This document shows, in pieces, positions 20,038 to 38,716 of a DNA stretch of 64,000 nucleotides (its first letter is position 1; every line of letters starts with the position of its first letter). Under the pieces are notes generated by a model. The model was not told where the DNA came from, did no database searches, and saw only the letters and a list, made by a program, of their open reading frames with translations. This DNA is from Acidimicrobiia bacterium (GTDB lineage: Bacteria > Actinomycetota > Acidimicrobiia > Acidimicrobiales > AC-14), in NCBI GenBank assembly GCA_023265025.1, contig JAHFUP010000001.1:1-64000 (forward strand). The letters are read 5' to 3'. Made by a program: the position numbers and the translations under genes.

Positions 20038-20080
20038 GAGCGGGCGACGAGAATCGAACTCGCCTTCTCGGCTTGGGAAG
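20038..20080 (-). repeat. Left tRNA-Gly(CCC)-derived direct repeat (att-like)
   Basis: Read on the minus strand this is the anticodon loop, T-arm and acceptor end of a tRNA-Gly with CCC anticodon: CTTCCCAAG, then GAGTTCGATTCTCGTCGCCC. It is identical to 24956-24998 at 41 of 43 positions, in the same orientation. Here the anticodon stem no longer pairs well, the CCA end is missing, and only a tRNA-like 5' portion is present, so I regard it as a recombination scar rather than a working tRNA. A further matching 12-mer (GCAGGTCAcAGG / GCAGGTCAgAGG) lies beyond each copy. Confidence 0.6.
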
Positions 20081-20293
20081 TCGGCCGGAGGCACTTCGCT
20101 GAGCTGCCAAATCCGCGAAAGTGCAGGTCACAGGCCATACGACTGACCGCTGTTGTTCCCTCCGACACCCTGGTTCGCGGTAGATATGGCACGACTATGG
20201 CACGAAACGGCCCTTTCGCCCTCTCCGATAGCCAGGCGGAAAGAAGCGTCCACCCGCTGCTCGCAGTGCCCCCTGTCCTACTCCTGTACTACC
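20081..20293. other. Gap after the left repeat, no gene seen
   Basis: No coding signal. It contains a tandem TATGGCACGAC / TATGGCACGAA pair near 20187 that recurs once as TATGGCACGAC at about 24876, next to the integrase stub, so it may be part of the element's end sequence. Confidence 0.4.
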
Positions 20294-20578
20294 ATGAGCG
20301 GCATGGCTGGACGCAAGAAGCGGTCGATCTCGATGCCGCCCGACCTTGACGCACAGATCGAGGACGCTGCTAAGGCCGGCGGTGTCACGTACAGCGCGTG
20401 GCTCGCGGCGGCGGCCCGCAAAGAGTTCCTCGTTCAGGACGGCTTGGAGGCCGTGGCGGAGTTCGAGCGGACGGACGGTGCATTCACCGACGCCGAGCTG
20501 GCCGAGGCGGAGGCCTGGGCGTCCGACGCAGTCGTCCGTTCGCGTCGGACCGGCACCGCCCCACGTCGCAGCGCCTGA
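20294..20578 (+). CDS. Antitoxin of a PIN toxin pair
   Basis: A 94-residue protein (91 if started at ATG 20303). It reads RKKRSISMPPDLDAQIEDAAKAGG then TYSAWLAAAARKEF, the ribbon-helix-helix pattern of VapB/CopG-like antitoxins, followed by an acidic toxin-binding tail (GAFTDAELAEAEAWAS). The stop TGA shares its last base with the ATG of the PIN gene, a classic coupled antitoxin-toxin junction. No clear TANNNT box fixes which ATG is used. Confidence 0.72.
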   Translation: MSGMAGRKKRSISMPPDLDAQIEDAAKAGGVTYSAWLAAAARKEFLVQDGLEAVAEFERTDGAFTDAELAEAEAWASDAVVRSRRTGTAPRRSA

Positions 20579-20958
20579 TGGGCGTGACGTACGACACGGG
20601 TGCCCTCGTCGCCGCCGACCGGGGTGAGCGGCGGATGTGGGCTCGGCACCGCGCACTCCTGGCGCTTCGCACAGTCCCGACGGTGCCGGCGCCCGTCGTT
20701 GCCCAGGGTTGGCGTGGAGGTGGGCGCCAAGCCCTACTTGCCCAGCTCCTTCGTGGTTGCGATGTCGAGGTGCTCGATGATGGCCGAGCGCGTGCCGTCG
20801 GCGCTCTCGCCGCACAGGCAGGCGCATCGGACGTTGTCGACGCGTGTGTCGCAGAAGGGGCGCTGCGACGCCGCGATCTCGTCGTGACGTCCGACCCAGA
20901 AGATCTCAGAGCCATTGCTGGCGCAGCCGGCGGCCACCTCGAACTAGAGCGGCCCTGA
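20578..20958 (+). CDS. PIN-domain (VapC-like) toxin
   Basis: A 126-residue PIN-domain protein, presumed RNase toxin. The first catalytic Asp is in GVTYDTGALVAADRG, the later acidic positions in ASDVVDACVAEGAL and VVTSDPEDLRAI. The usual Glu after the central helix is replaced in PVVAQGWRGG, so activity may be reduced. Translation is coupled to the antitoxin through the TGATG overlap. Lies inside the segment bounded by tRNA-Gly repeats. Confidence 0.75.
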   Translation: MGVTYDTGALVAADRGERRMWARHRALLALRTVPTVPAPVVAQGWRGGGRQALLAQLLRGCDVEVLDDGRARAVGALAAQAGASDVVDACVAEGALRRRDLVVTSDPEDLRAIAGAAGGHLELERP

Positions 20959-21965: not shown

Positions 21966-22364
21966 TCAGCGATGTGTTCGGACCTGAACGCCCGGGAGGT
22001 TCGTGAAGGCGGTGTCGTCGGCGCTGACGACCATGCGGGCGGTAGCCCTCGCAGTTGCGGCGATGATCAGGTCGTGCGCCCCGCGAGGTCGTCCCTCGCG
22101 TCGGACGTGAACGAGCAACTCGGCGTGGGCCTCCGCCACCGCGCGGTCGTAGTCGAGGAGGGGGATCACGGCCAAGACGTCCTGGAGAAAGGCGAGGCGG
22201 GACGCTCGCTTCTTTCCGGAGGACAGGTGCACTCCGACTCGTAGCTCCGCCGCGGTAATGGCGGCGATCGCCACTTCGTCGTCGTCGGCGAAAGCGTCGT
22301 CGAGGTCGGTTACCGAACGTTCCGCGTCGATCAAGAAGGTAGTGTCAAAGAGGAGCCTGGTCAG
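21966..22364 (-). CDS. VapC-family PIN toxin
   Basis: A 132-residue intact PIN ribonuclease toxin. Catalytic acidic residues are all visible: TRLLFDTTFLIDAERS, the Glu in ITAAELRVGV, the Asp in AHDLIIAATA and the Asp pair in VVSADDTAF. The only codon giving the family's usual amino end is CTG at 22364, overlapping the antitoxin stop as CTGA; the nearest upstream in-frame ATG/GTG would add about 18 unlikely residues lying inside the antitoxin gene. A rare CTG start used by translational coupling is therefore the best reading. Confidence 0.78.
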   Translation of the reverse strand: MTRLLFDTTFLIDAERSVTDLDDAFADDDEVAIAAITAAELRVGVHLSSGKKRASRLAFLQDVLAVIPLLDYDRAVAEAHAELLVHVRREGRPRGAHDLIIAATARATARMVVSADDTAFTNLPGVQVRTHR

Positions 22365-22603
22365 GGCCGTTCCTCGATCTCGACGACGGAGCGGACGGCA
22401 GCCAGGTCCTTCGACCACTGAGGATCCGGTCGGTGGCGGCGGAGCAACGCCTTGACATCGGCGCCGTGGCCGTCATTCATCGGCTCCAAGATCGCGATCG
22501 CCTTGCCTCGTCGAAGGATGGTGAAGCGTTCGCCACGGTGTTCCACAGCGTCGAGGAGGTCGGCGAAGCTCCTTGCCGCCTCGGTGGCTGTGATCTCCGA
22601 CAT
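22361..22603 (-). CDS. Phd/YefM-family antitoxin
   Basis: An 80-residue antitoxin: ITATEAARSFADLLDAVEHRGERFTI and RRGKAIAILEPM are the characteristic Phd/YefM DNA-binding domain, with a toxin-neutralising tail ending RSVVEIEERP. A TAATCT box ends 7 nt upstream of the ATG, so the operon is probably leaderless and repressed by its own product. The TGA overlaps the toxin start. Confidence 0.82.
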   Translation of the reverse strand: MSEITATEAARSFADLLDAVEHRGERFTILRRGKAIAILEPMNDGHGADVKALLRRHRPDPQWSKDLAAVRSVVEIEERP

Positions 22604-24604: not shown

Positions 24605-24838
24605 TCATCGGCCCAGCGACGGTATGTCTCGCGCTGCTCCCACATGCCGGCCAGGCCTGCGAGCGGGGTCGATCCAAGCGCCTCGGCCCAGGTCGGTGCG
24701 CACCTGCGCCAGGTAGTCAGCCGCCGCGCTACGCGTCTGGAACGTGGCGTGTTCGACGCCATCCACCCGGTACCGGGCCTGGTACCGGCCCGACGGCAGC
24801 TTCCGGCTGCTCCGCCAGTCGATTCGTCGCCGTGGCAT
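24605..24838 (-). pseudogene. Amino-terminal stub of a phage-type tyrosine integrase
   Basis: From ATG 24838 the sequence reads RRIDWRSSRKLPSGRYQARY, then RVDGVEHATFQTRSAAADYL and GRGAWIDP, the arm-type DNA-binding and start of the core-binding region of actinobacterial tyrosine recombinases. Beyond WIDP the frame degenerates and no catalytic Arg/His/Tyr motifs follow, so about 300 residues are missing. It points away from the right tRNA-Gly repeat 118 bp to its right, the normal placement of an integrase beside its attachment site. Confidence 0.68.
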
Positions 24839-24955
24839 GGCACGCAGGGTACCCCGTGCCACTCGCAATGGCACGGTATGGCACGACGGCGGTCACAGGG
24901 GGGCCGCCGAACCGTCCCGGAGGCGTTTATGGCCTCTGACCTGGACTTTTGTGTG

Positions 24956-24998
24956 GAGCGGGCGACGAGAATCGAACTCGCGTTCTCAGCTTGGGAAG
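24956..24998 (-). repeat. Right tRNA-Gly(CCC)-derived direct repeat (att-like)
   Basis: Minus-strand 3' part of tRNA-Gly(CCC): a perfectly pairing anticodon stem (TCAGC...GCTGA) around CTTCCCAAG, the T-arm GAGTTCGATTCTC and the acceptor end. The bases beyond it complete GCCCGCTCCA, so the CCA is encoded here, unlike in the left copy. No matching tRNA 5' half precedes it on the minus strand, so it is a 3' fragment as left by integrase-mediated insertion into a tRNA gene. Confidence 0.65.
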
Positions 24999-25876
24999 CT
25001 GAACGGAGCCAGCCCTCCCACCAGCAGATTTGGACAAACCCGCAGGTCAGAGGGGGTGCAGCATTGCTCGGTGCTGCTCGCTGTTGCGCACTTTTCCGCC
25101 CTCGTTGTGGCCCATCCGTGGCCCAAGGCCACCGGGGTCGGGCGATTGCACCGCAGATGGCTACGCGTACATCCCACGGGTCGACGCCCAGCCATCCCTA
25201 CCGGGCTCCCAGCCTCGGCCGGGGCATGTGCCTCGCACCGGACCGGTTACCACCGGCGTCGCCGCCAGACCGGAGGTGATCGTTCATGGGCCCGGGCACG
25301 AGGCGGTCGACGGCGGTCGTCATCCCGGCCGGTCGGAATGCGCGCCAGTCACCTCCCACGTCTCCGAGGGGCGCTCGGCTCGCGCCGTCCTGTGCACCCG
25401 ATCGGGATCTGGTGGAGACGGCGGTCGCATCGTCGCCGTCACGGCGTTCGAGGCCGACGGGACGCTTGACTCCCGAGACCGACGGTGTGGAGTGACAATC
25501 GTTGTGCGCCACCGTCCGGCGCTAGGTGGCGCGTGTCCGCCGGCGCGCGTCGTGGTGTTAGGGGATGCGTAGGAGGTCCGGTGCGACGTATCCTGTCAGC
25601 GGCCCGTCGCACCGGCGTTCCTTTCGGAGGTTGATAGCGGTCGTTCCATGAGCAGGACGTGCATCTGCGCCGACCATGAGAACGTCGAAATCCGTCGCCC
25701 TTGTCGGGCCGGCGCGCCGATGTCCCCCTGATACGACGACTTTCACTCCTCTTCTCCAGTCCCGGCGCTCGGTGTGCGTCGCCCACGCGACACATCCAGG
25801 TGGAGCGGCCGGCGATCGAGGCCTTTCAGGCGAGCATCTCGGTGCGTTATCGGCTCCGGCCGGTTCCCGGCGGGAC
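24999..25876. other. Gene-free stretch between island and PIN-protein gene
   Basis: About 880 bp with no gene I can support. Short open frames lack family features and start sites. A 62-codon minus-strand frame (25558-25746) has DFDVLMVGADAR, faintly like a nucleotidyltransferase strand, but nothing else. Possibly worn-out mobile DNA. Confidence 0.4.
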
Positions 25877-28162
25877 TCAACCGGACTTGATGCTCTCCCA
25901 TATAGCGGAAGCTAGAACGCTTCCCCAGACGGCCACAAAGGTGCCAATTACCCAGCAGCGGCTGCGCCTTAGTAGGTAGGCCAGCTTCCCGTCTCGCATC
26001 GAGGCTTTCGCCTGCAAGACTAGCCCGCATATAAGAGACCACGCCAACACGGCGGCAATAGCCACGCAAAGCCATGCGACCCAGGCACCACCAGGCAACC
26101 GCCCGGATAGTCCGAACCCCGCCAGGACTGTCGCGGCACCCGTCGCAAGTGTAACCGCGAGGAACGCGACCGTCACACTCCGGCGCTCTCGGAGCCACTC
26201 CTCCTTGGCCGTCGCTTCCTCCGCGAGGCGTCGCACACTCTCCTCTAGTAGGGCCTGAGAAGCGAGCATCTCATTCGCCCCCTGCAGATGTTTCTCCTGC
26301 TCCTCAAGGTGAAGGCTCTTGAGGCGATCGATTTCGCTCGACAGGTCAGTCACTTGGCGTTGGCGTTGGTCCAGATCTGTCCGAAGCTGTTCAACCTTCT
26401 GATCCCGACTTGCGACAGCCTGACGGGCATCATCAGCGATGCGAGTTCCTTCGTCGCGCGCAGTAGCTAGGTCGCTCTCCAGCCTCTGCGCTTCTTCAAT
26501 GATTGCAGCCTCGATTAGCGACACCTCGACGGCGGTCGAGGCATTCGGAGAGTCGGCTAGGCGAGCTCTCAGCGCATCATTTGTGAGCACATTGTAGATC
26601 GTAGGAACTGATAGATCGTTGATTCCCTCAAATCGCGAGATAGTGCGGAGGATACGGATTGTCGTTTGCTCTGTCGATGCATCAAAGTCGAGAAAGAGTA
26701 AAGGTTCTCGTATAGCGCCGACGAGCGCCTTATCCAGGGCCTCCGAGCGGGGAATCCAAAACTGCAGGAGTTGTATGAACGTGCTTGGACTGAAGCACAC
26801 TGGGGCCTCATCCGTACCGCGCACCTTTCGTCTGTCGAACGATATGAGGCCGAAGTCGACAGTGCAGACCCAGGTCTGAAGGCCTATGGGAGATGCGCCG
26901 GGCGATCGACGACGCTCATGAGCAAAATGCCAAAGAACCATGTCATGGAGATTTGCCTCGTACGGCTTCGGCCCGAGTCGCCGACGTTGGCGCTGAACAA
27001 GCTCCTGATCGTGCAGATCGTCGATAACTTCAGAATCAATCCGAAGTGATTCAAGGTCGACGTCGAGAATCTCAACCCCGCGTTCCCTCAAGATAGTCGC
27101 GAGATCAGACTCGTACGGACCGAAGAATGCATCCGGGGTTAGACCGCTCATGCCCGCTTGAGCGGCCGCCTCGAAGTATCGTGTAACCAGACCAGTCGAC
27201 GTAACGTCGCGCGCTGCAGCAGCGATTCTTGGTCCTGGGATCACACCTGACAGGCGAAACATCACGCTGCGAAGTACGCGGCGCGTTTCCTCCACGGTAA
27301 TTGGCAATACCAAGAATTCAACTCGGATAGACGAACTGGCGCGTTCTGCGACCTGAACTAGGTCTGCGGCAACATCGTTTGCGGGGTTATCATGTAGGCG
27401 TAGAAAAGAGAATAGGAAGTTTGTGTCAACAAACACTTGGATTCCAGCGGGCGGGCCCGCCCGAGCCTTGAGGGCATCGAGGGACGAAGCCTCCATTCCT
27501 GCAGCCTCTCTGACGAAATCTGCGTTCAGCGTCCTCAACACATAGTTCCGCACATCTGAGTCTTCAGGATTCAAGAACTCCACCAAGAGCTCACGCATTT
27601 CCGTGCCATATTTCTGACACAGCGGCTCGACGATCTGCCGATAGGTCGGAACCGCCACGTTGATGTCGGCCGTCGATGTCAAGACCTCGTATATCCGCGC
27701 CCCCGCCGCCTTAACCAGCGGATGCATGAACATGTCTTCGAAGTCATCCCAAAGTGCCGCGTCGTCGGCGTCTATCCCAGCAATCTGCACGAGCGCGATC
27801 AGTCGCGCGTAAACCCGTTGTTCGGATGCGGTGACATCGGCGAGTTCGAGACGTAGTGCCTCACTCTGCTCTTCAGATGCCTTTAGGCAGCCATCTTGCG
27901 CTTCGACAAGCGTTCCATCAGCCAGGGCGCGCTCAACGGTCCGTTCAACTCGTTCGCGATCGAGCCGGCCGTCCAGGCTAAGCGTCAGGACACTCAGAAC
28001 CTCCTCAATCGTCGTCCTACCACGGAGCCAGACGGTGACGAGCACGATCCGCTCCAGTGCGCGATCCCACCAGCCCGATCGGTGAAGCTCCGCGTGATGA
28101 ATCAGGCTGACCAACTCAGGCGCAAGCCGCTCTCCGCCTGGGCCGTGCTCCGTCTGCGCCAA
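25877..28162 (-). CDS. PIN nuclease / coiled-coil / three-helix membrane protein
   Basis: A 761-residue protein I cannot place in a named family. Residues 1-240 are helical with no recognised domain. A PIN-like nuclease follows: IQVFVDTNFLFSFLRLHDNP (Asp 246), ITVEETRRVL (Glu 291/292), EANLHDMVLWHF (Asp 407) and WVCTVDFGLISFDRR (Asp 436). Residues about 550-660 form a long coiled coil, then three transmembrane helices (about 662-684, 693-716, 736-756) anchor the carboxyl end. Start is TTG 28162 with AGGTG about 8 nt upstream and TAGAAT 38 nt upstream. AT content is visibly higher than in neighbours, a sign of transfer. A membrane-tethered RNase in defence is an inference. Confidence 0.75.
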   Translation of the reverse strand: MAQTEHGPGGERLAPELVSLIHHAELHRSGWWDRALERIVLVTVWLRGRTTIEEVLSVLTLSLDGRLDRERVERTVERALADGTLVEAQDGCLKASEEQSEALRLELADVTASEQRVYARLIALVQIAGIDADDAALWDDFEDMFMHPLVKAAGARIYEVLTSTADINVAVPTYRQIVEPLCQKYGTEMRELLVEFLNPEDSDVRNYVLRTLNADFVREAAGMEASSLDALKARAGPPAGIQVFVDTNFLFSFLRLHDNPANDVAADLVQVAERASSSIRVEFLVLPITVEETRRVLRSVMFRLSGVIPGPRIAAAARDVTSTGLVTRYFEAAAQAGMSGLTPDAFFGPYESDLATILRERGVEILDVDLESLRIDSEVIDDLHDQELVQRQRRRLGPKPYEANLHDMVLWHFAHERRRSPGASPIGLQTWVCTVDFGLISFDRRKVRGTDEAPVCFSPSTFIQLLQFWIPRSEALDKALVGAIREPLLFLDFDASTEQTTIRILRTISRFEGINDLSVPTIYNVLTNDALRARLADSPNASTAVEVSLIEAAIIEEAQRLESDLATARDEGTRIADDARQAVASRDQKVEQLRTDLDQRQRQVTDLSSEIDRLKSLHLEEQEKHLQGANEMLASQALLEESVRRLAEEATAKEEWLRERRSVTVAFLAVTLATGAATVLAGFGLSGRLPGGAWVAWLCVAIAAVLAWSLICGLVLQAKASMRDGKLAYLLRRSRCWVIGTFVAVWGSVLASAIWESIKSG

Positions 28163-29084: not shown

Positions 29085-29306
29085 GCTCACCCCCCGGCCG
29101 GTCCGGGTGAGCGACCCGATGGGCCCTCGTGGGCGGGACCGCTGCCCGGCGGCTCACATGGCGTCAACGTCGGACCCGAGCCTCGCTGCTCAAGACCACG
29201 TCTGGCGGACCCCACCGCTTCGTCCCTGGGCGTGCCAACTCATCCGCCAAGAATTGCGCAAGCTGGCAGTTCCCGTGCCCGTGCGGCGAAGCGTATAGCT
29301 GCGCGA

Positions 29307-30020
29307 GTGTCTGCTCTCGGTCGCACGCTGCGATGGGATGGTTGTGTCAATGTCCGCGACCTCGGCGGCTACACGACCAATCACGGCCGCCCCACCAGGT
29401 TCGGCTCGGTGGTGCGATCGGACAATCCAGCTCGCCTGTCACCGCGAGGATGGCAGGAGCTGAGATCGTACGGCGTTCGAACGGTCATCGGACTGAGGAC
29501 CGTTGGGGCCGTTGATGACGAGCCGACTGACGATCAGGTTCCCGACGATGTCGAGTTCGTCCGTGTCGTAGTCGAGGACGTCACTGATCGCGAGTTCGCG
29601 GACCAGCCTGTCCGGAACGGCCTTTGGGGAACTCCGCTCTACTTCGCTGACGCCCTCCGCCGCTGGCCCGCCCGCGCCGCAGCTGCCGTCGGTGCCGTCG
29701 CTGGAGCTGCGCCCGGAGGTGTCGTGATCTCGTGCGGCCGCGGCTGTGATCGGACCGGCTTCCTGGCTCTCTTGCTTTTGCATCTCTGCGGCGTCTCGGC
29801 CGCTGACATCGCTTCTGACTATGCCTTGAGCATGGAACAGATGATCGAGCGGGACCCGGGCTACGCAGAGGAGCTCACGACGCTTCTGGAGCGTCACGGG
29901 ACCTCGATCGAAAGGGCCATCTCCGCCGTTGTCGCCGAGCCCATTCTGGAGACCCTCACCATTGGCGGGCTGAAGGCGGAGGAACTCGAAGCGCTCCGGG
30001 ACCGCCTCCTCGAGCCCTGA
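29307..30020 (+). CDS. Tyrosine-phosphatase family protein with atypical P-loop
   Basis: About 237 residues of the bacterial tyrosine/serine phosphatase family (Y_phosphatase3, PtpB/Cps4B-like). Family features are NVRDLGGYTT near the start, the RSDNPARLS segment, VRTVIGLRT, and the phosphate-binding loop ISCGRGCDRTGFLALLL near residue 142, which keeps the Cys-x5-Arg of the active site but lacks the His that normally precedes the Cys and the Lys of the GKDRTG form. Start at GTG 29307; TATAGC ends 7 nt upstream and may be the -10. It has no secretion signal. It ends 115 bp before the convergent ietS-like gene. Confidence 0.78.
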   Translation: MSALGRTLRWDGCVNVRDLGGYTTNHGRPTRFGSVVRSDNPARLSPRGWQELRSYGVRTVIGLRTVGAVDDEPTDDQVPDDVEFVRVVVEDVTDREFADQPVRNGLWGTPLYFADALRRWPARAAAAVGAVAGAAPGGVVISCGRGCDRTGFLALLLLHLCGVSAADIASDYALSMEQMIERDPGYAEELTTLLERHGTSIERAISAVVAEPILETLTIGGLKAEELEALRDRLLEP

Positions 30021-30135: not shown

Positions 30136-32658
30136 TCAAATCTCGATGGCGACGGCCTCGGCTGGGATCGAGAGAGCGGCCGCTATCGGGGTGTAGATGT
30201 CGACGTCCTGGGCCCTGGTGCGCAGCGAGACGATGAGGGCGTAGCGGACCGGCAGGTCGATGCGGTCCTTGCGCCGATTGTTCTTCCACCAACCTCCGAC
30301 CGCGTGGACGGCGAGCACGCCTCCGGTCCCGGCGAGTTGGGGTCCGTATCCCGACCAAATGTCCTGGTGGAGGGAGCCTTGGTTGCGCTGGTTGGGTCCG
30401 ACGGTCCAGTTGTCCGAGCCCCTCGCGGGTGGTGTGCCACCCTCTTCCTCCACGCTGGCCTCTCGGTTCACGCGCCGGACGAACTCCGGAGTCGTCTCAT
30501 TCGGACCTCGCAGTTCAAATCGAAGCCCGTGGGACGCATAGGCGTAGCGGCGACGCCAGCCCCGGCGGGCGGCTGACGGCTCGATGAAGTATGAGAGTGT
30601 CACGCGCAGCTCGACATCGGCAGCACCAAGATCGGCAAGAACCTCCGACGGCCATGGCAACTGGTGGAGCCGGAAGTTCCGCATCCTGTAGTCATCACCG
30701 GTGAACGGAACGAACTGGTCCTGCACCACCATGGTCACGGCGTTCGTCGCTGAGCTCAGCACGTTCTGCTGATGTGGAACACCCCAGCCGTAGCGCTTCA
30801 GCAGCAACCGCCGTTGCTTCTTGCCGGGCTCGGCGTCGATCGCCGCTCTCATTATCGGGCTCCACTCAGCGTGGTGCGTAATGAGTCCTCGAATCGTCTC
30901 TGGCCAGTAGGACGGGTAGGTGGCCATGGCAAGAGCAGCAAGACGTGCGGCTTGCGCAGTCGCAGCACTGGTGGCGTTCGCGGAGCCCAATGCAGCGTCG
31001 TCGCGCCGATCGGTGGTCCGAAGCGAGAGGAGCGGGTGATTTCCGTGGAAGTCACCCTCCCCATCCGTGAGGATGTTGCCGCCTTCCATGCAGATGTCCG
31101 GCTTGATCGGCCACTGCGACCCTCCGGCGATGACGCCGGTGCGACTGTGGGGTGAGATGTCTCCCTTCTCGGCGATCGCGCGCCAACCGGCGTAGGTCGG
31201 GTCCAAAGGGACCTGCGTTAGATCAGTGTGTGCGCCGACGGTGAGTGCATTCCACGATTGGGCCGGATCCTCAATCGGCGATAGGTCGGCGATCTGCCTG
31301 TAGTTCAGGTCGAAGCCATCGCGGATGTTTCCGGCGGAGACAATGAAGAGCCGAACCGCATTGGGATCCGGCGGGCCGAGGAGCGCTATGCCCGTCGTCG
31401 ACCTACCGACGTCCGTTCCTGCAGCGAGTGCGTCAACGGCTGCGGACCAGAGCGACGGCTCGCCTGAGCGGTCGGCGGTGTTCGTGATCGGCATGCAGTA
31501 TGCGCGGCTGCGAGTGTGCGTGATCTCGGGGACCACGACTGCTTCAGCCGTCACAACCCCGTATGCCAACGGATCATGTGGCAGCTGGCCAGCGTCGGGC
31601 AGAAACTTGACAGACTCCAGTCGATGTCGAAGCGTGATGCGGTGGTTCCCAAGCAGTGCATCGTCCAGCGGGCCGAGGAGGGCCAGACCCGCCATCAGGG
31701 TTCCGTGACCGGTGAGGTCGCCGGTCGGTAGTCCCACTATCGAGTGCATGTCGGACTCCGCCAACGATGCTTCGACGAGCAGATGCGTGCGTCGAACGCC
31801 CGTGTCGAGCAGACACACCGCTGGGGCTGCGGCGTCCGCGGGTACGACCCGCCCGGCAAGGTCCTCGGTCCACTCCATCCGCTCTCCGAGGTCCAGGTCC
31901 TCGATGGTGTCGATGAACTGCGGGCGCCGTAGCTCCGCGATCGGCACCGCTGTGAATGGCAAGGGCAACAGCTGGTCCCAACGCGCCTGAATCCACACTA
32001 CGTGGCGCCGGTCGAATCGCAGATGGTTCGGAGCGATCCGCAGTTGCGCTCGAGTGGCGTACTCCTGAGCAAGGTCCACGGCGTCGGGGTCCGGGCGCAG
32101 CCAGACCTCCCACCAGTGGACTCCCGTGGTTGGCGGTTCTCCGTCGGATTGCCAGAGGTCACGCACGACGGTCGCCCGAATGCGGGCCATGTTGGCGATC
32201 AGTGCCCTGTTACGCGGGTTGCCCCCGGGTGTGTCCTTGGTCAGGTAGTCCTCAAAGAGCCGAAGGAATGCCTCCCGGTACTCATCGCTGATCCAGACGA
32301 GTGCTCGCTCCGGCCAGTCTCCCCTCTCCGGCGAGACGCTGAGCAGCAACCATTTCGGACGAGGCGCAGCACGGTGGGTGCTCAGTTGTTCGAGAGAGTC
32401 GAGACTGAGCGGGAAACCCGGGCTCGCCTCGATCGTGACGATGACCCCGAGGGCCTCCAGTTCCTCGAGCGATCCCTCCTCGCGGATGTGGTCCTGCTCG
32501 GCCAACGCCGTCGCTATCTCTCGCTGCATTGTCTCACCGTGCGCCCGCCGTTCGACATCCCGGACCTTCCGATCACCTTGACCCTGTCGCGTGAACTCGC
32601 GATCCTCGATCTGATCGAGGACGAGCAGGTGGGTAAGGCGCTCCCCCGGCTCAGGCAA
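30136..32658 (-). CDS. ietS: Subtilisin-like serine protease, IetS type
   Basis: An 840-residue intracellular S8 protease. The catalytic triad is visible: Asp 285 in AVCLLDTGV, His 318 in TGHGTLMAGL, Ser 564 in NATSAATAQAARL, with the oxyanion Asn in FIVSAGN. A 270-residue amino domain and a 200-residue carboxyl domain flank the protease; no signal peptide is present. The TTG start at 32658 lies 8 bp inside the end of the AAA+ gene, so expression is coupled. AAA+ plus subtilase pairs of this build are known as IetA/IetS, first as a stability/incompatibility module of an Agrobacterium Ti plasmid and later in an anti-phage screen; assignment here is by pair architecture and motifs. Confidence 0.8.
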   Translation of the reverse strand: MPEPGERLTHLLVLDQIEDREFTRQGQGDRKVRDVERRAHGETMQREIATALAEQDHIREEGSLEELEALGVIVTIEASPGFPLSLDSLEQLSTHRAAPRPKWLLLSVSPERGDWPERALVWISDEYREAFLRLFEDYLTKDTPGGNPRNRALIANMARIRATVVRDLWQSDGEPPTTGVHWWEVWLRPDPDAVDLAQEYATRAQLRIAPNHLRFDRRHVVWIQARWDQLLPLPFTAVPIAELRRPQFIDTIEDLDLGERMEWTEDLAGRVVPADAAAPAVCLLDTGVRRTHLLVEASLAESDMHSIVGLPTGDLTGHGTLMAGLALLGPLDDALLGNHRITLRHRLESVKFLPDAGQLPHDPLAYGVVTAEAVVVPEITHTRSRAYCMPITNTADRSGEPSLWSAAVDALAAGTDVGRSTTGIALLGPPDPNAVRLFIVSAGNIRDGFDLNYRQIADLSPIEDPAQSWNALTVGAHTDLTQVPLDPTYAGWRAIAEKGDISPHSRTGVIAGGSQWPIKPDICMEGGNILTDGEGDFHGNHPLLSLRTTDRRDDAALGSANATSAATAQAARLAALAMATYPSYWPETIRGLITHHAEWSPIMRAAIDAEPGKKQRRLLLKRYGWGVPHQQNVLSSATNAVTMVVQDQFVPFTGDDYRMRNFRLHQLPWPSEVLADLGAADVELRVTLSYFIEPSAARRGWRRRYAYASHGLRFELRGPNETTPEFVRRVNREASVEEEGGTPPARGSDNWTVGPNQRNQGSLHQDIWSGYGPQLAGTGGVLAVHAVGGWWKNNRRKDRIDLPVRYALIVSLRTRAQDVDIYTPIAAALSIPAEAVAIEI

Positions 32659-33619
32659 CGCTCGCGTTGCTCCGCTCGCTGAGCGCCTGGACCAGGGTCG
32701 CTGTCGCCACCCGGTCGGCGCTTGCGAGGAGCGTTCGCTTGGCGGCTGCCTCGGCGGCCTTCACGAGCTCGGCGTGGCTCATCCCCTTCATCGACTGCCG
32801 AACTGAGGGCCACCGGATCCCCTTGCCCATCGGACCCAGTCGAGCCTTCAGGACGGTGACTGCCTCGTCGGGTGTGGGCTGCCGGTAGCTGATGATCATG
32901 TCGAATCGGCGGAACAGCGCCCGGTCGAGGATGGCCCGATGATTCGTGGCGGAGATAACAACGCTCTCGGGGCTGGCCTGCTCAAGGAACACGAGGAAGG
33001 AGTTGAGGATCCGACGTGCTTCACCGACGTCGTTGCCCGCTCGGTCGCCACCCAGCGCGTCGAACTCGTCGAAGAGGTAGACGGCCCGCTGGCTGGCCAC
33101 CGCGTCGAAGAGCAGGCGGAGCTTGCTTCCGGTCTCGCCGAGGTACTTGCTTAACACCGAGTCCAGGCGGATCGTCATGAGCGGCAGGTCAAGCTCGTTC
33201 GCTATCACCGCCGCGGTCATCGTCTTACCCGTACCTGGCGGCCCCTCGAGCAGGAGACGGTGGACCGGATGGAAACCCTGTTCCATGAGGGTGTGACGCT
33301 GCCGCTGCTCAGCTAGCACCTGGTCAAGCTGTGCCCGGACCTCGTCGGCGACGACCAGATCACGGAGTCCGACTTCCGGAAACGACGCCGACACGAGGTC
33401 GGCGATCTCGCCCCGAGGCTGTGCGATGGGAGTGACGACCGTGGCGCTGGACTGTCGCCGAGCCGCGTCGACGAGGTCCTTCAGCTCAGCCGCGAGTCGG
33501 TGGTGACCTTGTCGTGCGGCCTTGGCGGCGACCTGCAGTGCGACCGCATAGAACCCCTCGTCGTCGCCCGACGAGTGGCTCTTGACCAACGCTTTGATGT
33601 GATCGGCCGTTGCAGACAC
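32651..33619 (-). CDS. ietA: AAA+ ATPase, IetA type
   Basis: A 322-residue AAA+ ATPase, expected to restrain or trigger the protease encoded after it. Residues 1-100 are a helical amino domain; then DEVRAQLDQVLAEQRQRHTL, Walker A GPPGTGKTMTA (Lys about 132), LDSVLSKYLGETGSKLR, Walker B VYLFDEFDAL (about 179-188), sensor 1 VVISATNH and the arginine-finger region LDRALFRRFD. GTG 33619 is fixed by a TACAGT box ending 8 nt upstream. The ancestral role reported for the pair is antitoxin-like ATPase and toxin-like protease; the direction of control here is inferred. Confidence 0.82.
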   Translation of the reverse strand: MSATADHIKALVKSHSSGDDEGFYAVALQVAAKAARQGHHRLAAELKDLVDAARRQSSATVVTPIAQPRGEIADLVSASFPEVGLRDLVVADEVRAQLDQVLAEQRQRHTLMEQGFHPVHRLLLEGPPGTGKTMTAAVIANELDLPLMTIRLDSVLSKYLGETGSKLRLLFDAVASQRAVYLFDEFDALGGDRAGNDVGEARRILNSFLVFLEQASPESVVISATNHRAILDRALFRRFDMIISYRQPTPDEAVTVLKARLGPMGKGIRWPSVRQSMKGMSHAELVKAAEAAAKRTLLASADRVATATLVQALSERSNASVA

Positions 33620-33627
33620 CGGAGCCA

Positions 33628-33655
33628 ACTGTACGGTCTCCGCGTCAGCGGTGAA
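33628..33655 (-). promoter_or_regulatory. Promoter of ietAS: TTCACC - 16 nt - TACAGT
   Basis: Minus-strand -10 TACAGT (33633 to 33628) ends 8 nt before GTG 33619. A possible -35, TTCACC (33655 to 33650), lies 16 nt further upstream. The message would be leaderless. Confidence 0.5.
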
Positions 33656-34088
33656 CGATGGCCAGGATCGTGATGAACGCAGCCCCAAATGACAGAGGCG
33701 GCGACGACTAGAGGTACGGCACGGCGACGGCCGAGTCGCAGAGACGGGGCTCTTGGCGCCGTCAAGGTCCCGCACGGCGACCACGCAGTGCCAGCGTGAG
33801 CATGCCGAGGACTTGGCCCGGAATGCATCGAGCAACCCATCTTCGACAGATCGACACGTGGGTATGCGGCCTTGATGAGTGAATCGCCTGGAGATCGGCG
33901 CCGGCTCACGGCCTCAGGGTGTCCCAGAAGGAGAGCCCCATATCCGAGCCAGCGGCCCTACCCCGCATAGCCCGTAGGTGCCGTTCCGGGCGTAGGGCCG
34001 CTTAGCCTCACATTGGTTGTGTCGAATGGACGTTCGTGCTGAAATCTTCCCATTTCGCAGGGGCTACGAGCGGCGTCGCCGTCACCGC
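33656..34088. other. Gene-free boundary before the conjugative-element genes
   Basis: About 430 bp with no supported gene, between ietA and the leftward excisionase-like gene. Open frames here are short and featureless. It may hold a transition between inserted elements but I see no repeat or att-like sequence. Confidence 0.4.
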
Positions 34089-36505: not shown

Positions 36506-36585
36506 CTCGACTGGTGTGCGACCGGGCCAAACGCCACAAAGAAATCTCAAATTTCATCGTGGCGTCCCGTGTCGCGCCAGCGGAA
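36506..36585 (+). repeat. Composite palindrome, copy A (decayed)
   Basis: The left outer arm CTCGACTGGTGTGCG (36506-36520) and left inner arm AAACGCCACAAAGA (36528-36541) are intact. The core and right arms have drifted (ATCGTGGCGT for TTTGTGGCGT; the outer right arm is barely readable). It sits 80 bp upstream of the transglycosylase pseudogene, as copy C sits 84 bp upstream of the intact gene. Confidence 0.7.
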
Positions 36586-38633: not shown

Positions 38634-38716
38634 CTCGACTGGTGTGCGGCGGAGCCAAACGCCACAAAGATTTCTGAGATTTCTTTGTGGCGTTTCCGGT
38701 TCTCGCACACCAGTCG
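38634..38716 (+). repeat. Composite palindrome, copy B
   Basis: Outer arms CTCGACTGGTGTGCG (38634-38648) and CGCACACCAGTCG (38704-38716); inner arms AAACGCCACAAAGA (38657-38670) and TCTTTGTGGCGTTT (38682-38695). The 11-bp centre is TTTCTGAGATT, the exact reverse complement of the centre of copy C, while the right spacer CCGGTTCT has the same orientation in both. Lies 32 bp upstream of the primase start, in the gap between leftward primase and rightward Tad-like operon. Confidence 0.85.

Follow-up and report, generated by a model that had tools for sequence, protein, structure and literature searches.

One current theme is the backup effector, which is set off when restriction is disabled by a phage; PrrC, PARIS, and ShdA are examples. 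Bunzi, a two-gene system, combines a PIN-like DUF4935 protein with a membrane protein. PrrC stays latent with its Type I restriction partner until a phage disables that partner (PMC3506569). ShdA, of the Shield system, is a membrane-bound nuclease that is sufficient for defense, and it could not be cloned in untethered form, which suggests toxicity (PMC10270631, PMC11090510); it contains a long coiled coil and is found in Type I restriction loci (PMC11090510). As to PIN nucleases, one study lists PIN endoRNases in its main text among the backup effectors of BREX loci, as a rare class (PMC12839542), and DefensePredictor DS-3 is a single PIN protein without an antitoxin whose catalytic residues are needed for phage defense (PMC13092281). 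Neither the family libraries nor the literature that we searched yielded a membrane-tethered PIN nuclease acting as a backup effector.

The window, by which we mean the whole stretch of 64,000 nucleotides analyzed here, contains a minus-strand ORF of 761 codons that begins with TTG, with the purine-rich GGCAGGTG approximately a dozen bases upstream of this start. Its predicted layout is as follows.

25877..28162, minus strand: whole PIN gene, encoding a winged helix, helical region, PIN domain, helical linker, coiled coil, and three transmembrane helices in 761 amino acids (ORF, AlphaFold2, hydropathy)
27863..28120, minus strand: N-terminal winged-helix-like domain, approximately residues 15-100 (AlphaFold2 pLDDT approximately 71-86 over most of the domain; Foldseek match to the IclR family, prob 0.99)
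27449..27862, minus strand: helical region, residues 101-238, without a family match (AlphaFold2, conservation analysis)
26738..27448, minus strand: PIN-like nuclease domain, residues 239-475, with Asp246-Thr-Asn, Glu292, His406-Asp407, Asp436, and Asp443 (invariant motif; homolog crop model with pLDDT 82.9)
26528..26737, minus strand: conserved helical linker, residues 476-545 (mean pairwise identity 37%, on a par with the PIN domain)
26180..26527, minus strand: coiled coil, residues 546-661 (a single long helix in the model; the main library matches are coiled-coil proteins)
25898..26179, minus strand: three transmembrane helices, residues 662-755 (hydropathy peaks of 2.03, 2.67, and 1.86)

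A first, sequence-only reading of this DNA had described a long coiled coil followed by three carboxyl-terminal transmembrane helices, and hydropathy and modeling both bear this out: Kyte-Doolittle analysis gives hydrophobic segments at residues 662-686, 688-720, and 736-755, and the AlphaFold2 model has one continuous helix over residues 543-685, followed by helices at 692-718 and 726-759, with low confidence in this part. The full-length model is weak overall (mean pLDDT 62.6); a Foldseek search with it, in which methyltransferases were the top matches, was set aside because the model was too poor. Near the amino end, prediction supports a winged helix, which resembles those of the IclR family. 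That reading had also known no family with this domain order, and indeed no Pfam or NCBIfam model matches the window protein at or above its cut-off. At the limits used, searches against PADLOC, NCBIfam, and PHROGs yielded weak matches that fall almost wholly within the coiled coil, those from PADLOC being weak coiled-coil matches only; as mostly coiled-coil noise, library matches of the full protein were rejected as a guide to identity, as was similarity to SLATT_1, which is not significant (E 0.32). Pfam gave no match to an RmuC domain, and the library searches gave no match to an ATPase domain besides weak coiled-coil similarity. The gene had been noted as lower in GC than its surroundings, and it is: 58.0%, compared with 66.0% for the rest of the 19-34.4 kb region and 72.2% for the remainder of the window.

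Searches of approximately 2,000 genomes and contig collections yielded 12 relatives (four from a scan of the genome collection, six from searches of the approximately 2,000 genomes, and two from an alignment-based scan of viral contigs), so that the family, window included, comprises 13 loci. Over the alignment, members share 16-30% identity with the window protein. Since homologs in other phyla that are 28-37% identical keep invariant catalytic residues, the window ORF and its features are, as judged by sequence conservation, more than chance. The distribution of the family, as revealed by these searches, is patchy. Only the window's own genome has a homolog among 60 relatives and among 296 genomes of its class, and, counting only matches that extend beyond the coiled coil, homologs occur in 2 of 399 genomes of the order of the L003 homolog and 3 of 299 genomes of the class of the L002 homolog. 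None was found in plasmids, in named phage genomes, or, by a near-identity DNA search, in E. coli genomes. Weak genome matches that cover the coiled coil or the transmembrane part only (L008, L009, and L013) were discarded.

Could the gene instead encode a housekeeping membrane-associated RNase or RNA-decay factor? Membrane-tethered RNases, including RNase E and RNase Y, do exist. However, the homolog is missing in 59 of the 60 relatives and 295 of the 296 class genomes, the GC content of the gene is below that of its flanks at each of the 11 loci measured, and some copies are prophage cargo, and we disfavor this explanation as highly improbable.

Is the domain a PIN nuclease? Asp246, Asn248, Glu292, Asp407, and Asp436, together with Lys399, His406, Arg418, and Asp443, are kept in all members that cover them, and the acidic order D...E...D...D (D246, E292, D407, D436) holds without exception in the members that cover it, even at 16% identity to the window protein. 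The sequence-only reading had picked out Asp 246, Asp 407, and Asp 436 as PIN-like acidic residues, all of which lie where it placed them and are kept throughout; it had also named Glu 291/292, and of this correctly positioned pair Glu292 is conserved and Glu291 is not. Mean pairwise identity in the family alignment is highest in the PIN domain and linker (36-37%) and lowest in the transmembrane part (16.5%), a pattern expected of a protein whose output is catalytic.

For the PIN crop of the L003 homolog, the structure was predicted from an alignment of five sequences. The best of five models has a pLDDT of 82.9 and a pTM of 0.82, and the other four have a pLDDT of 55.6-60.2. Its Foldseek matches in the PDB, none of which reaches E 0.001, are headed by AF1683 (E 3e-3, prob 0.99) and also include PAE0151 (prob 0.98), VapC toxins, and RNA-free RNase P; Rossmann-type tyrosyl-tRNA synthetases match almost as well. 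We take AF1683 and PAE0151 to be PIN proteins. The top viral structure match is annotated as "PIN like domain" (prob 1.00). Pfam models of the PIN clan (PIN, PIN_12, PIN_8, and PIN_5) match below threshold only (E 0.095-0.23), in three of seven cropped PIN segments, and align at the DTN motif; hhalign of the PIN segment against the PIN_12 alignment, which is very shallow at two sequences, gave nothing. Given the invariant motif, the PIN-like model of the homolog crop, and the PIN structures among its nearest folds, residues 239-475 likely adopt a PIN-like fold, as had first been proposed, although the crop was confidently modeled in one of five attempts and the synthetases also match.

If the domain is a PIN nuclease, what does it cut? 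Degradation of phage DNA at the membrane by a PIN/FEN-like nuclease, as with ShdA, would suit a gene that sits with DNA-targeting systems, and the predicted winged helix could bind DNA; moreover, ShdA is a membrane-bound DNase (PMC10270631). Since the nearest solved folds of PIN architecture are VapC-type and RNase P-type RNases rather than FEN1-type nucleases, we consider DNA cleavage unlikely and RNA the more probable substrate.

The sequence-only reading had suggested a role in defense, and the neighborhoods of the relatives agree, as these lie in defense operons and prophages rather than in housekeeping operons. A tally of neighboring genes, one of the checks that reading had put forward, places 5 of the 13 loci inside DNA-modification operons, with two of the five from the same bacterial family. 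By a back-of-the-envelope estimate on this small and partly related sample, the chance of such a count is on the order of 1e-6 given a generous 2% background. In L015, hsdM, hsdS, the PIN gene, and hsdR run in one direction, and the TTG start of the PIN gene overlaps the TGA stop of hsdS. L017 is a BREX locus, pglX...pglZ-brxL-PIN (PglX, PglZ, and BrxL identified by PADLOC), in which the PIN gene starts 2 nt after the brxL stop; in L002, the PIN gene lies 158 bp after brxL, which was called by near-identity to the end of L017 BrxL. L016 carries HmaA, Fic, PIN, HmaB, a further gene, and HmaC, with hmaB starting 2 nt after the PIN stop. In L033, an Eco57I-type methyltransferase gene precedes the PIN gene, and an HNH endonuclease gene 17 bp on is followed by ZacB and ZacC. 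From gene order, the family is thus often an accessory of DNA-modification defense systems, a feature absent from the earlier reading. We also note a decayed copy behind brxL at L017:10029-10848, in which the amino end and the coiled coil and transmembrane part are kept, the PIN domain is deleted, and the frame is shifted.

Other relatives occupy different settings. In L003, the PIN gene adjoins a complete CBASS type II set, with NACHT and Mrr-like genes nearby. L037 lies in a Mu-like prophage, antiparallel to the phage genes, between the terminase and an early region with a Mu-type transposase (terminase and early genes assigned by eye), and L038, near a contig edge, is flanked by purB and, on its other side, by phage-type umuDC and tail-fibre-like genes; judging from these gene orders, both copies are prophage cargo. 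L004 and L034 have no defense operon adjacent, nor does L032, in which a Septu pair lies approximately 6.5 kb away. The L005 locus is cut by a contig end. Since two homologs adjoin mutagenic-polymerase genes (L034:11527-15564, imuB/dnaE2-like by eye; L038:4351-6107, umuDC, with umuD matching phage UmuD records), these neighbors suggest SOS-linked mobile contexts.

The window copy had been placed between a toxin-antitoxin island and an ietAS-like pair, and matches to VapC and an antitoxin on one side and to IetA and IetS on the other uphold this. The neighbors are listed below; the IetAS-like genes are given as context.

21966-22603: VapC (PF01850, 4e-10) and Phd/YefM-type antitoxin (28.6 bits, just below the cut-off of 29.8)
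24954-25025: intact tRNA-Gly, between the PIN gene and the toxin-antitoxin region
29232-30020, plus strand: tyrosine-phosphatase gene, between the PIN gene and ietS
30136..32658, minus strand: IetS-like subtilase (PF00082, 5e-42; PADLOC IetS, 6e-27)
32651..33835, minus strand: IetA-like AAA ATPase (PADLOC IetA, 5e-68)

Since the window copy lies outside any restriction operon, and the nearest defense genes, the IetAS-like pair, are approximately 2 kb off with one opposite-strand phosphatase gene between, it may act alone. A complete Type I hsdM-hsdS-hsdR set on the host contig (approximately 72.9-79.6 kb, G000:C165; L035:4892-11606) was rejected as a partner, as its distance of 45-50 kb is too great.

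It is also conceivable that the gene belongs to a toxin-antitoxin or addiction module unconnected with phage defense, as PIN domains are common as toxins and the VapBC pair is 3-4 kb away. However, no conserved small partner gene was seen next to the homologs in the neighborhoods inspected, the protein has 761 amino acids and membrane helices, and the family resides repeatedly in defense operons, all of which makes such a module improbable. The toxin-antitoxin region itself looks like a separate integrated element, since it is set off by the tRNA-Gly, and a second copy of most of this tRNA gene occurs at 20038-20093 (56 nt, 88%, approximately 4.9 kb from the intact tRNA); this repeat is likely an attachment-site pair flanking the region. 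Beside the tRNA, a short ORF (24605-24874) that on visual inspection resembles the amino terminus of a tyrosine integrase is probably a decayed integrase. A second VapC-like PIN ORF lies at 20578-20958 (PF01850, E 0.0016, below the cut-off). Farther away, a 60-nt repeat (36506-36565 and 38634-38693, 85%), also an inverted-repeat pair, flanks the carboxyl part of a primase-like gene region.

One relative differs from the others at its membrane end. L032 (L032:9745-11982), from a bacterial genome, encodes a PIN nuclease fused to an intact pore of the mitochondrial-calcium-uniporter type, with the filter WNVMEP; its carboxyl end matches PF04678 (68.9 bits, cut-off 30.8, 8e-19) and MCU structures in the PDB (6xqn, 1e-11). 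We know of no solved uniporter that carries a nuclease, and a fusion of a PIN domain to a uniporter-type pore was not found in the literature searched. Over residues 1-638, L032 shares 40% identity with L033, and over approximately the same residues 32% with the window protein; homology ends at the membrane. Since its homology to its sisters stops at the membrane and a uniporter-type module follows there, the membrane module of the family is, on this alignment, exchangeable. No uniporter pore motif was found in other members, the window protein included, whose carboxyl end has neither a match to MCU (PF04678) nor a WDxMEP-type filter motif; the idea that its transmembrane part is a degenerate uniporter was rejected, as nothing supports it.

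The intact pore with its WxxMEP filter means that at least one member keeps a channel, and one could imagine that the membrane part is the effector, with the PIN domain and winged helix sensing RNA or a nucleotide and gating a pore or disrupting the membrane. However, conservation is lowest in the transmembrane sequence, no other member has the pore motif, and the PIN catalytic residues are invariant; we consider this arrangement unlikely. The uniporter-type pore does raise the testable question of whether membrane ion state can control a defense nuclease. More speculatively, the family could form a membrane-coupled group with an exchangeable module (mostly three transmembrane helices, one calcium-uniporter-type pore), whose nuclease is governed by ion flux or the state of the membrane and which serves as a universal backup effector across Type I restriction, BREX, Hma, and Zac-like systems and prophages; we regard this broader proposal as tentative and would not yet bet on it.

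We favor, with some confidence, the view that the gene encodes an anti-phage effector, a PIN-fold nuclease tethered to the membrane and most likely an RNase. The architecture, the invariant quartet, the recurrent embedding in defense operons, the carriage by prophages, and the low GC can be read from the sequences themselves; RNA as the substrate, restraint by the membrane, the trigger, the abortive outcome, and oligomerization we infer. The carboxyl helices would anchor the protein in the inner membrane and leave its coiled coil and catalytic part facing the cytoplasm; it would probably be an oligomer restrained by its tether. The tether had been proposed before, and it fits a coiled coil and carboxyl membrane part in all members examined, though their sequence is poorly conserved and one member has a different module. 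Infection might be sensed through failure or inhibition of the partner DNA-modification defense (Type I restriction, BREX, Hma, or Zac-like), or, for a stand-alone gene, by direct sensing of the membrane or another phage signal. The PIN domain would then be freed or activated and cleave cellular RNA, with tRNA as our best guess, stopping phage growth at a cost to the cell. Given the prophage cargo and the orphan copies, including that of the window, the protein can probably act alone. Since the family is joined to four kinds of DNA-modification operon, often a few bases away or overlapping, and is also found alone in prophages, a single effector may answer to sensors of very different kinds. 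The protein is probably a backup weapon against phages that is held at the membrane until needed.

How does this protein compare with described systems? VapC (PF01850) shares the predicted PIN fold and acidic quartet, but is soluble, approximately 130 amino acids long, and adjacent to its antitoxin, whereas the window protein has 761 amino acids and membrane helices; identity as VapC or VapBC was rejected on its length and on the lack of a conserved small partner in the listed neighborhoods. The mitochondrial calcium uniporter (PF04678), a channel with a coiled coil and two transmembrane helices carrying a WDxMEP-type filter, resembles the family through the pore and WNVMEP filter at the end of L032, but neither the match nor the motif occurs in the window protein. 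Auxiliary PIN endoRNases of BREX are likewise encoded adjacent to or inside BREX and BREX-related loci, but the main text, to which this comparison is confined, has PIN as a rare class or in combination with OLD ATPases, and the word "transmembrane" does not appear in it (PMC12839542). DS-3 is also a one-protein PIN system with no antitoxin, but its PIN domain comes in two parts, one at each end of the protein, and the portion of the report considered here does not mention a membrane anchor (PMC13092281).

Parallels in function are PrrC and ShdA, whose placement inside Type I restriction or similar operons is found for L015, L002, L017, L016, and L033 and not for the window copy. Like members of the PIN family, PrrC of the Type Ic system EcoprrI is a nuclease encoded with hsd genes, and it is the fallback when restriction is inhibited (PMC3506569); it differs in combining an ABC ATPase with a HEPN-type RNase, whereas the PIN family has no ATPase match and is membrane-anchored. 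ShdA is a single polypeptide with a membrane helix, a long coiled coil, and a nuclease, and the PIN family, too, occurs in a Type I restriction locus; however, ShdA has a single transmembrane helix, at the amino end, so that the order is reversed, its nuclease is of the RmuC/PD-(D/E)XK type, and no winged helix is mentioned. By analogy, the simplest reading is that the operon positions of the PIN family fit the logic of PrrC and that its architecture mirrors that of ShdA.
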